The translations under genes and the position numbers were made by a program. The notes below the pieces were generated by a model. The model did not search any database. It was not told the DNA's origin and was given only the letters and a program-made list of their open reading frames with translations. A stretch of DNA of 64,000 nt from an uncultured Eggerthellaceae bacterium (GTDB lineage Bacteria > Actinomycetota > Coriobacteriia > Coriobacteriales > Eggerthellaceae): NCBI GenBank assembly GCA_947650915.1, contig CANSWY010000008.1, forward strand, positions 1 to 64,000, given 5' to 3'. Positions 17,123-60,492 of this stretch are shown here, one piece after another. Each line of letters opens with the position of its first letter. The first letter of the stretch is position 1.

Positions 17123-18100
17123 CTATTCGGGTTCGGGGGCGAGGGAGAGATCTTCGGTGCGGGCGTTCCAGGCCTCGATCGCCAGGTTCGCGAAGAAGCA
17201 GGCGTAACGGAACACCACGAACGCCACCATGCCAGCCGCGAAGATGGTCTCAGCCACGCACACCAGGTTCAGCACCGAAGGCAGCGGCACGCCCGCGTTC
17301 GCGAACGCCTGCAAGGACAGCATCAGCGCTGTGGCCGTGATGACGAACGGGAACGTCATGGCCGCGTAGCTGGGGTAGAAGCCGCCGCGGACGTAGGCTG
17401 GCACACGCATGAGCACCAGCACGAACATGGCCTGCGCCACCACCAGCAGCGCGCCCACGAACAGAAGGTTCGGCGCATCCGTCACCGCTAGATAACCGGC
17501 GATGGACAGGCTGGCCGGCGCAGAATAGACGCAGAACAACGGCCGCGCGGCATCAGGCACCGGGTGCTTCGCATAACGCAGCGTGACCAGCGCCAACAGC
17601 ACCGGGTAGCAGGCGAAGCCGCCCCAGAAGAGCACGCGGCCGATGGCCTCCATCCCGAAGTTCGGCGAGGTCACCGAAGCCACGATGATCCCCACGTAGC
17701 AGATGAACCACGTAGGGAACACCTGATTGAGCTTGAACGCGCGCAGCCGGAGGTAGCGGCGCGCGAACCACACCATGAGCGACAGATGCAGCCCCACCGC
17801 GGTGGCCCACAGCGCCATGCCGAACAGCTGATGCAGCGGCGCCACATAACCCGCCAGCTGCATGATGGTCATCAGGAACGTGGCCGACACGCTGGCCAGG
17901 ATGGGGTTCTTGAAGTCTTCCTTGATCATCTCCGGGAACGCGATCACCTTGCAGGCGACCAGCAGCACCAACAGCGCCGAAAGGGCTCCGCACACCGGAC
18001 GCGCCGCCCCCATCGCCGGCCCCAGCAGGTTGCCCAACGCCGCAAGGCCCAGCGCCACGCCCGCCGTTGGAATGGGGACTCCCTTGATCACATCCAGCAT
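17123..18100 (-). CDS. TDT family transporter (TehA/C4-dicarboxylate type)
   Basis: A 325-residue membrane protein with about ten hydrophobic helices and little loop sequence, matching the tellurite-resistance/dicarboxylate transporter (TDT) family. The conserved start VIKGVPIPTAGVALGLAALG and the mid-helix FPTWFICYVG fit the family. It may move organic acids or anions; the substrate is not readable from sequence. AAAGGA lies 7 nt before ATG 18100. A LysR-type gene is divergent from it with a dyad in between, so LysR control is likely. Confidence 0.85.
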   Translation of the reverse strand: MLDVIKGVPIPTAGVALGLAALGNLLGPAMGAARPVCGALSALLVLLVACKVIAFPEMIKEDFKNPILASVSATFLMTIMQLAGYVAPLHQLFGMALWATAVGLHLSLMVWFARRYLRLRAFKLNQVFPTWFICYVGIIVASVTSPNFGMEAIGRVLFWGGFACYPVLLALVTLRYAKHPVPDAARPLFCVYSAPASLSIAGYLAVTDAPNLLFVGALLVVAQAMFVLVLMRVPAYVRGGFYPSYAAMTFPFVITATALMLSLQAFANAGVPLPSVLNLVCVAETIFAAGMVAFVVFRYACFFANLAIEAWNARTEDLSLAPEPE

Positions 18101-18124
18101 GCAAAGTCCTTTCTCTTCGCTCGA

Positions 18125-18355
18125 GCGCAAAAGGGACGTTCCGAATTGCACCGAGAGCCGATCTTGCGGGTTGTGCGAAAGGCCCCTGTGCGAAGGGGCT
18201 CCCATGTGCAAAAGGGACGTTCCAAATTGCACATAGAACCACGCTTTCCAGTGCATCATCTCTGTTCCTATGTGCAATTTGGGACGTCCCTTTCGCACAT
18301 GGGAGGCCCTTTTGCACATGGGAGGCCTTTCGCACAGGGGAGCCTTTTGCACATC
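18125..18355. repeat. Nested palindromic element with decayed flanks
   Basis: Inner left 18203-18234, loop CACGCTTTCCAGTGCATCATC, inner right 18269-18300. The left flank is a unit 18125-18151 plus GTGCGAAAGGCCCC pieces. The right flank is a run of short pieces GCACATGGGAGGCC repeated twice and GCACAGGGGAGCC, as if made by slippage within the palindrome. Confidence 0.85.
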
Positions 18356-19994: not shown

Positions 19995-20164
19995 GATGTG
20001 CAAAAGGGACGTTCCAGGGCCTGATGTGCAAAAGGGACGTTCCAAATTGCACATAGGAAAAGGTGATGCTTGCTGGAAGACTTTTGCTATGTGCAATTTG
20101 GGACGTCCCTTTTGCACATCTGGCGATCTCGCAGGTGCGATTTGGGACGTCCCTTTTGCACATC
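19995..20164. repeat. Nested palindromic element
   Basis: A truncated outer left unit (19995-20016, cut after GGGACGTTCC), inner left 20022-20053, loop GGTGATGCTTGCTGGAAGAC, inner right 20089-20119, spacer CTGGCGATCTCGCAG, outer right 20135-20164. Confidence 0.93.
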
Positions 20165-20171
20165 GTTGAGG

Positions 20172-21056
20172 CTAGACGCCGCGAGAAGTGTTCGGCCAGA
20201 GGATCTTGTGCAGTTGCAGTTGCAAACGAGCCTCGTGCATGTCTGATCGCTGCAGCGCATCCGCCACATCAGCCGGATCGACGCTGCCCCACACCGGGCT
20301 CACCAGCACAGCGCATCGACCGAAGAGACCCGCTTCAGCAGCACATTTTGCTGCGAATGCCACGTCATCCACGCTCCCGATGACGAATTTCACCGCATCG
20401 CGTTCGTCCAGTTCGGCAAACGTGCTCGGCAACATCCGTTCGCAGGCATCAGCCCCCGCCGCCGGCGTCTTCCAGTCGACCGTCAGATGCAGGCTTCCCG
20501 GCAGCTCCGTGGATGTGCAAAAGGGACGTTCCAAATTGCACATAGGATCAGATGTTGCGCGCTGAGAGGCTTTTTCTATGTGCAATTTGGGACGTCCCTT
20601 TTGCGCATCTGGCGATCTCGCGGGTGCGATTTGGGGCGCCCCTTTTGCACATCGCAATTTGGGACGTCCCTTTTGCACATCTTCGCGCAGGTGGAGCAGC
20701 GGGGTCAGGTTGCAGGAGCCGTTCGTCTCCACCTCCACGCGCAGCGGGTGCGGGTCATCCACGGCCATCAGCTGCTGCACCAGATCCGGCAGCCCGGTTT
20801 GCAGCAGCGGTTCGCCGCCGGTGAGCGTGACGGCCGACACGCCCGTGCTGCGCACCCAGTCCACCAGCTCCTCCGCTGAGCGCAGCTCCGCCGCGGCGAC
20901 TGCATCCGCCCCGTTCGCCCAGCGCGTGTCGCAGTACGCACAGTCCAGGTTGCAGCCCGCGAATCGGATGAACGCCGCCGGCCGCCCCGATTCCAGTCCC
21001 TCCCCGTTCACGGAGACGAACTGCTCCACCACCGGGAAACACGCGCTGTTCGCCAT
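20172..21056 (-). CDS. queE: 7-carboxy-7-deazaguanine synthase with in-frame repeat insertion
   Basis: A 294-residue radical SAM enzyme that makes 7-carboxy-7-deazaguanine for queuosine synthesis. The FeS/SAM motif is Cys35-X3-Cys39-X2-Cys42 in GCNLDCAYC; the substrate/SAM segment TLTGGEPLLQ and VEVETNGS are present. Residues 126-182 translate a palindromic repeat (20511-20681, 171 nt) inserted without breaking frame. Without it the protein is 237 residues, normal for QueE. Flanks LLHLRE and STELPGSLHL join sensibly. ATG 21056 begins 3 nt after the queD stop, so the two genes form one operon. The insertion lies after the sixth-strand region, probably in a surface loop; activity is likely but untested. 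Confidence 0.9.
   Translation of the reverse strand: MANSACFPVVEQFVSVNGEGLESGRPAAFIRFAGCNLDCAYCDTRWANGADAVAAAELRSAEELVDWVRSTGVSAVTLTGGEPLLQTGLPDLVQQLMAVDDPHPLRVEVETNGSCNLTPLLHLREDVQKGRPKLRCAKGAPQIAPARSPDAQKGRPKLHIEKASQRATSDPMCNLERPFCTSTELPGSLHLTVDWKTPAAGADACERMLPSTFAELDERDAVKFVIGSVDDVAFAAKCAAEAGLFGRCAVLVSPVWGSVDPADVADALQRSDMHEARLQLQLHKILWPNTSRGV
20511..20681. repeat. Nested palindromic element inside queE
   Basis: Inner left unit 20513-20543, loop AGGATCAGATGTTGCGCGCT, inner right 20578-20608, spacer CTGGCGATCTCGCGG, outer right 20625-20653, and a further right unit 20654-20681. Exactly 171 nt is added to the reading frame. The loop and spacer match intergenic copies, so this is the same element and not chance similarity. 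Confidence 0.95.
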
Positions 21057-21059
21057 GGC

Positions 21060-21485
21060 TCAAGCGTCAGCGCGGTAATACGCGCAGTTGTTCGGCGTCT
21101 CGTACACGTCCACCTGCGCCACCGGCAGCCCGCGCGCGGCCAGCTGGTCGAAGAACCACTTCGCCAGGTTCTCCGCTGTGGTGCGGAACGGCATCTCCAG
21201 CAGTTTGAAGCCTTCGCGATCCAAGCAGGCCAGCGTGTCCGACGCCAGCGAACCGGCCTCCACCAGGAAGCGGTGGTCCAACTGTTCGGTGAGTTCGCGC
21301 AGGGCGGCCTTGAAGTCGCCGAAGTCCACGACCATGTCTTTACAGGTGCCTTCGCTCTGCAGTTCGCGCACCTCCAGCCGCGCCACCACGCGCCAGCGGT
21401 GGCCGTGCAGGTTCTCGCACTTGCCGTGGTAGTCCGTCAGGAAATGCGACGCGTCGAAGCTGCTCTCCGTTTTGAGTCCGTACAT
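21060..21485 (-). CDS. queD: 6-carboxy-5,6,7,8-tetrahydropterin synthase
   Basis: A 141-residue QueD/PTPS-family enzyme, the step before QueE in the queuosine pathway. Zinc ligands are His14 (ASHFL), His27 and His29 (CENLHGHRW); the catalytic Cys is Cys23. MVVDFGDFK, the DHRFL motif and the C-terminal VYETPNNCAYY fit the family. GGAGG lies 5 nt before ATG 21485, with a TATAAT at 21510-21515 on the same strand. queC and queF are not in the window. Confidence 0.95.
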   Translation of the reverse strand: MYGLKTESSFDASHFLTDYHGKCENLHGHRWRVVARLEVRELQSEGTCKDMVVDFGDFKAALRELTEQLDHRFLVEAGSLASDTLACLDREGFKLLEMPFRTTAENLAKWFFDQLAARGLPVAQVDVYETPNNCAYYRADA

Positions 21486-21509
21486 CCCGCCTCCGTTCTG
21501 TCTCTGCGG

Positions 21510-21515
21510 ATTATA
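21510..21515 (-). promoter_or_regulatory. -10 box of queD-queE
   Basis: TATAAT on the minus strand, 24 nt before the ATG of queD, leaving a short leader with a good ribosome site. No room remains for a preQ1 riboswitch. Confidence 0.55.
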
Positions 21516-21554
21516 CCGGGTGCCCGATGCACAGAAAGCGCCTGCTTGGGTGGG

Positions 21555-21777
21555 GGTGTGCGAATGGGGACGTTCCGAATTGCACTTGGCGGGTGGGTGA
21601 TGTGCGAAGGGGACACCCCAAATCGCACACTTCGCGTGCAATTTGAAGCGTCCCCTCCGCACATCGCTCGTGGATGGCTGGATGTGCAAAAGGGACGTTC
21701 CAAATTGCACATAGGAATAGATGATGCGCACTGAAAGGCTTGTCCTATGTGCAATTTGGGACGTCCCTTTTGCACAT
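21555..21777. repeat. Compact variant plus nested palindromic element
   Basis: A unit at 21555-21585, then a compact hairpin 21600-21665 in which two units face each other across a short ACTTCGC loop and carry GCGAAGGGGACACCCC instead of the usual core. Then inner left 21681-21712, reverse loop, inner right 21746-21776. Nothing else is recognised in 21486-21877. Confidence 0.92.
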
Positions 21778-21877
21778 CCCTACGGGTGCGTGACAGGCGG
21801 GGCGGTAACGGGGGCGCATCCCGGGAGGGCAGCTACCATCAAGCCACCAGCGCCATCGCATCACGCAGGAGGACCCC

Positions 21878-27735: not shown

Positions 27736-28005
27736 GATGTGCGATAGGGATGTGCGGAGGGGACACCCCAAATTGCACACTGCGCGTGCAATTTGAAGCG
27801 TCCCCTCCGCATATCGTGTGCAAAAGGGACGTTTCAAATCGCACTTGTGAGGTTGCCAGATGTGCAAAAGGGACGTTCCAAATCGCACATAGGAAAAGAG
27901 AGACTGTGCTGAAAGACTGCTCCTATGTGCAATTTGGGACGTCCCTTTTGCACATCCACATCTGGTGACTTCGCTGGTGCGATTTGGGACGGCCTTTCGC
28001 ACATC
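27736..28005. repeat. Compact variant plus nested palindromic element
   Basis: A fragment at 27736, compact hairpin 27750-27814 (GTGCGGAGGGGACACC facing CGTCCCCTCCGCAT, loop ACTGCGC), outer left 27817-27844, inner left 27860-27890, reverse loop, inner right 27924-27954, degenerate outer right 27977-28004. The right border gives the next gene its TGA. Confidence 0.92.
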
Positions 28006-51953: not shown

Positions 51954-52020
51954 CATGTGTAATGGGGACATCCCAAATTACACACTTCGCGTGTAATTTG
52001 AAACGTCCCCATTACACATG
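51954..52020. repeat. Compact palindromic variant with compensated arms
   Basis: CATGTGTAATGGGGAC faces GTCCCCATTACACATG across the short ACTTCGC loop. The usual GTGCAAAAGGG/CCCTTTTGCAC is replaced on both arms by GTGTAATGGGG/CCCCATTACAC, keeping the pairing. It starts 5 nt after the jag stop. Confidence 0.95.
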
Positions 52021-60250: not shown

Positions 60251-60263
60251 GGATTTGCGGGGA

Positions 60264-60492
60264 CGTGCGAAGGGGACACCCCAAATCGCACACTGCGCGT
60301 GCAATTTGGAGCGTCCCCTTTGCACGTTGCAATTTGAAGCGTCCCCTTCGGATGTGCAAAAGGGACGTCCCAAATTGCACATAGGAATAATGAGCCTGCA
60401 CTGAAAGACTGTTCCTATGTGCGATTTGGAACGTCCCTTTTGCACATCAGGCAACCTCGCAGGTGCGATTTGGGACGTCCCTTTTGCATATC
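60264..60492. repeat. Compact variant plus nested palindromic element
   Basis: Compact hairpin 60264-60326 (loop ACTGCGC) with a third related unit to 60350, then inner left 60352-60382 (GGGACGTCCC), forward or mixed loop with CCTGCACTGAAAG, inner right 60417-60447 (GGAACG), spacer CAGGCAACCTCGCAG, outer right 60463-60491. Confidence 0.92.

Follow-up and report, generated by a model that had tools for sequence, protein, structure and literature searches.

A palindromic element abundant in one Eggerthellaceae genome lies in frame within queE and lysS

In the 64,000-nt stretch of Eggerthellaceae DNA analysed here (the window), the queE gene carries a copy of a palindromic repeat family within its open reading frame, and a second in-frame copy was found in lysS on another contig. 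The reading that we favor, and hold to be quite likely, is that a REPIN-like element was amplified in one species and that two of its copies have been tolerated in frame, with both enzymes most likely active. A non-autonomous REPIN-like palindromic mobile element would thus have multiplied to ~877 units in a single species, where it would normally survive between genes. Two copies would have landed where the protein tolerates extra sequence, in QueE the variable loop and in LysRS the linker between two domains. Each copy would be translated in the one sense frame that lacks stops, in place of native loop codons, and the products would most likely be active enzymes with a disordered surface loop of 57 aa (QueE) or ~33 aa (LysRS), the insert peptide probably having no function of its own.

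The queE gene (7-carboxy-7-deazaguanine synthase; 20172–21056, minus strand) is one continuous open reading frame of 294 aa running through the element, which occupies positions 20512–20681 (170 nt) and would be translated on the minus strand. The inserted copy has four units, one in plus and three in minus orientation. Unit 1 (20512–20541, plus strand) is GATGTGCAAAAGGGACGTTCCAAATTGCAC, the exact 30-nt consensus of the family, and is separated by a loop of the family-standard 38 nt (20542–20579) from the inverted unit 2 (20580–20609, minus strand). A 14-nt spacer (20610–20623), the commonest gap between units of the same orientation, leads to the inverted unit 3 (20624–20653, minus strand), which shows a symmetric change at its center from GGGACGTCCC to GGGGCGCCCC. 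Unit 4, also inverted (20652–20681, minus strand), abuts unit 3 without a spacer, an arrangement that was rare in our survey. An earlier note on this DNA had described a loop, a spacer and four units of the intergenic type inside queE, together with a 171-nt in-frame insert adding 57 residues. Both descriptions were borne out; the units belong to the same family as the intergenic copies, and 171 nt (57 codons) is the net gain of the gene as against 170 nt for the element proper. The insert is located between residues LLHLRE and TELPGSLHLTVDWK of QueE, and its peptide includes SPDAQK. When folded, the copy forms a hairpin with a minimum free energy of -80.8 kcal/mol (z = -9.3). Under a hexamer coding model the two queE flanks are still recognized as coding, in a shared frame, and over the whole copy one sense frame of three is open, which is the frame in use.

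The partner gene queD lies upstream of queE (21060–21485, minus strand; PTPS, E = 3.4e-32 over residues 87–221; NCBIfam queuosine_QueD). Directly downstream of queE, a three-unit copy between genes (20023–20164) is 90% identical to the inserted copy over 143 nt, and an intergenic two-unit core copy is found upstream of queD (21681–21778). A longer queD frame reaching 21731 begins inside another element copy, which is probably not the real start. The longest N-termini of two window frames, 17123–18352 (a TehA-like transporter ORF) and 21060–21731 (queD), extend into element copies. These long starts are likely false calls, and automatic annotation would yield element-coded N-termini.

The identity of QueE was indicated by a Pfam Radical_SAM match and by NCBIfam TIGR03963, which matched in two stretches (E = 3.7e-62) with 209.9 bits, below the curated cut-off of 260.1. 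The insert splits the match, which accounts both for the two stretches and for the missed cut-off. The protein is still identified as QueE from its invariant residues, fold and family alignment. In the alignment of 29 family QueEs, the insert falls in a hypervariable loop before the TVDWK strand. The insertion site, for which the earlier note had called for an alignment of relatives, was therefore confirmed as a variable loop, but the insertion is not clean, as native codons have been lost: from the conserved Leu-Arg to LPGSLH there are ~7 residues in relatives versus 3 non-element residues here. Two relatives (G021, locus L096; G023, locus L097) carry an unrelated low-complexity insert of ~50 residues in the same loop, which is a hot spot for length variation. 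Their full-length matches were rejected as shared insertions since their DNA is that unrelated low-complexity insert. An ancestral insertion common to relatives was likewise rejected, given that the element occurs in no other QueE and its pattern in only one relative. A QueE search of a wider contig collection returned distant QueEs only, which were used for structure alignment.

The second in-frame copy is a two-unit core in lysS (contig C2:3563–3660, minus strand; loci L147 and L218). It sits between the tRNA-synt_2 domain (154–492) and the C-terminal tRNA_bind domain (552–652) of LysRS. The sister species (G074) has a linker free of the element at this site, APTASAASSVVGSVPVDFS, and in the other aligned relatives the linker is variable and mostly Ala/Pro-rich. 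Of the sister's linker, 18 of 19 residues are gone. The native codons missing at both sites could have been lost with the insertion or afterwards. The LysRS insert peptides include LHIEEDVR and TEKTDPMCNLGR, and queE and lysS translate the element alike (DVQ.GR.KLHI ... PMCNL.RP.CT). As in queE, only the frame in use is open in lysS, the other two sense frames of the element each being stopped.

The element belongs to a large family. The window contains 106 units, and 1.51 Mb of the genome (all but the smallest contigs, with contig C4:40001–80000 reading as N) contained 720 units at 255 sites, or 2.25% of the sequence, all from a single draft assembly of 50 contigs. Counted by pattern, the complete genome has 877 units. 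A chance repeat was rejected, as a shuffled contig yielded 0 units and the reversed control pattern 0 matches. The core consists of a plus unit, a loop and a minus unit, the loop being exactly 38 nt in 203 of 232 cores; additional units of the same orientation come after the core, most often at 14 nt. In the core consensus the outer ends of the element are terminal inverted repeats (GATGTGC...GCACATC), and the unit consensus ends in GATG outside and ATAG inside, with neither a GTAG nor a CGTC tetranucleotide tag at the unit ends. Flanking direct repeats of 1–8 nt showed no clear excess over shuffled pairs that would indicate a target-site duplication. The density of the element was very uneven, at 4.5 sites per 10 kb on contig C8 and 0.5 on contig C1. 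A diverged subfamily was also noticed in the window (21599–21665, 27749–27815, 51954–52020 and 60262–60328), with unit pairs such as GATGTGCGAAGGGGACACCCCAAATCGCAC that have a loop of only ~7 nt and each adjoin a normal copy.

Outside this genome the element is nearly absent. The unit pattern was not found in 396 of 398 genomes sampled across the class, the sister species included, and G049, another species of the same family, has three units. A plasmid or viral origin was rejected, since neither plasmid sequences nor IMG/VR gave an element match, and a known RNA family was rejected because only sub-threshold chance matches were obtained. A literature search with pieces of the unit sequence returned no bacterial report.

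Only two of the 255 sites, those in queE and lysS, are truly inside genes, with both flanks coding in one open frame by the hexamer coding model. As the surveyed sequence is 85.7% coding, most sites would be genic had the element landed at random. Another 46 sites, in 139 kb, yielded no convincing in-gene case, and none of the surveyed sites marked a gene that the element had disrupted; the other candidates with coding flanks in the same frame proved to be gene ends, adjacent genes or spurious ORFs. A third site called as in-gene (C3:10118) was discounted because it lies 49 nt from a predicted gene start, which is probably miscalled. The intergenic bias could reflect either insertion aimed at intergenic DNA or purging of genic insertions. 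Among the 234 intergenically placed sites, convergent gene pairs accounted for 75, more than the 45 predicted by intergenic length (p = 3e-6), and divergent pairs for 29, fewer than the 48 predicted (p = 7e-4). These 75 sites can be set against 127 convergent gene pairs genome-wide. The enrichment between convergent genes is compatible with a role, or with tolerance, as a bidirectional 3'-end hairpin. The earlier note had also considered the element, with five of the six translations of a unit free of stops, to be suited to reading through. Freedom from stops does hold for single units, and over the 232 cores 46% of frames are open versus 17% in shuffles, but it is not a property of the whole queE copy, where two of the three sense frames are closed by stops. 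The suggestion is weak, since almost all copies avoid genes.

The insertion may instead have inactivated queE, or be inactivating it, with the frame open by chance or recency and preQ1 or queuine being salvaged. This we regard as unlikely, although one in three random insertions would keep the frame and the strong hairpin within the coding region (about -80 kcal/mol in the mRNA) may hinder queE translation. The sister species also gives it some support. On its contig C1 near 129453 (locus L265), queD is present and queE is missing beside it, and queE and queC gave only weak matches across a genome that is 91% complete, with tgt and queA retained. De novo queuosine loss thus seems survivable in the genus, so that loss of QueE could go unpunished, and the sister species may have switched to queuosine-precursor salvage. 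However, the queE described here has neither a stop nor a frameshift, and its frame is kept despite the loss of ~4 native codons and the abnormal junction of units 3 and 4. All 28 family-invariant QueE residues, determined from an alignment of 31 members, are kept on both sides of the insert; the CxxxCxxC radical-SAM motif (C35, C39, C42) is conserved, as are TGGEP, ETNG, D194, K196, Q281 and H283. The root-to-tip branch of this QueE (0.74) is within the family range of 0.53–0.91. A less similar C-terminal half was rejected as a sign of decay because the same difference is seen in most comparisons between relatives that lack the insert. The queC, tgt and queA genes are intact in this genome, and together with queD and the invariant residues they make inactivation of queE less likely. 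The unrelated insert tolerated in the same loop of the two relatives, and the likewise intact frame of lysS, which belongs to an essential class of genes, also argue against it. An AlphaFold model of the 294-aa protein had a mean pLDDT of 77.9, with values under 50 only at residues 140–183, inside the insert, and at the last three residues. Its five best Foldseek matches were all QueE structures (including 6nhl, 5th5 and 5tgs), the best being QueE of E. coli and B. subtilis. Retained activity is thus predicted, and we consider it probable.

The remaining alternatives fit less well. The element could act as a ready-made source of inter-domain linkers, inserting with local loss and being kept only where it replaces disordered linkers, with its single open frame under selection; we regard this as quite improbable. 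Recruitment of the element in the two genes, with a useful peptide or mRNA hairpin (through the length of the LysRS linker, or translational attenuation of queE), would agree with the replacement of the native linker at both sites and with the stable RNA structure. It is nevertheless very improbable, given that in-gene sites make up so small a fraction of the survey, that both are sites of maximal tolerance, that the insert peptide is predicted to be disordered, and that no relative conserves it. A repeat-induced misjoin in the assembly could in principle have put the element into queE, since the draft holds hundreds of near-identical repeats, and the internal number of units could be wrong. 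Such a misjoin would, however, have had to bring together two parts of one gene without shifting the frame, and to do so separately in both genes; we regard it as extremely improbable.

Rickettsia is AT-rich, and the present host has 62% G+C. The earlier note's proposal of an independent case outside Rickettsia was upheld as regards an in-frame repeat in such a host, with lysS as a second case, but it is not the first counterpart. Palindromic elements that keep the reading frame are well known from Rickettsia (PMC10969869, PMC3767692), and PMC2996958 cites such repeats from Wolbachia and Methanocaldococcus as well. The Rickettsia and Wolbachia elements (RPE and WPE) resemble the present one in being palindromes of ~100–150 nt with coding potential that interrupt housekeeping genes without shifting the frame, at places that are unstructured and exposed to solvent (PMC3767692, PMC2996958, PMC10969869). 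It differs from RPEs in its host, in insertion sites that are common to no relative, and in being overwhelmingly intergenic. Nearly half of RPE copies lie within ORFs (PMC10969869) versus 2 of 255 here, so that the Rickettsia pattern is not matched. The CGTC end tag described for RPE-4 and RPE-6 in PMC3733652 is absent.

A similar placement has been described for REPs in a survey of intragenic copies (Di Nocera et al. 2013, PMC3733652). According to that report, these are short palindromic units in dimers or clusters, mostly intergenic and placed mainly where neighboring genes are unidirectional or convergent, often at the ends of convergent genes, with a minority in ORFs. They occur in several phyla, including in tRNA synthetase genes, and their clusters encode 43–82 residues. 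The units described here lack the GTAG or CGTC tag and form a new sequence family, and queE does not appear among the genes mentioned in the text consulted. MITE, ERIC and RU fusions (Delihas 2007, PMC2759123; PMC2229807) likewise involve small non-autonomous repeats whose open frames continue those of the genes they join. The element shares terminal inverted repeats with MITEs but shows no target-site duplication. The element is thus a new family, in a new host, of an already-described phenomenon, and it adds a palindromic family of very recent origin and very high abundance to the repeats that end up translated. As the family is recent and species-specific, the same enzymes can be compared before and after insertion. 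Of the two genes, lysS offers the more useful comparison, as LysRS is essential and the linker without the element is known from the sister species.

With REPINs (Bertels and Rainey 2011, PMC3116915) the element shares an inverted pair of REP-like units at fixed spacing, a hairpin, additional clusters, an extragenic location, lineage-specific amplification and the presence of Y1_Tnp genes in the genome. It differs in that no Y1 transposase gene here is flanked by the unit, the nearest being a 20/29 cousin at C11:35539; for this reason, and for the lack of a GTAG or CGTC tag, we call it REPIN-like rather than a REPIN. Mobilization would be in trans, by a Y1-type (RAYT-like) transposase. The genome encodes six Y1_Tnp genes (loci L009–L014), none of which adjoins a unit, the nearest unit being 1.9 kb away. 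The gene at C11:35539 is flanked by TGTGACAGGGGGACGGTCCAGATGTCATA, which matches the unit at 20 of 29 positions, compared with a maximum of 19 in 250 background windows; since six genes were tested, this is only suggestive. Most of the Y1_Tnp genes have flanking palindromes of their own, for example TTCGTAGCGCAGGCTTCAGCCTGCGAAAT or CGTAGGGCAGGGGCTTGCCCCTGCCGC.
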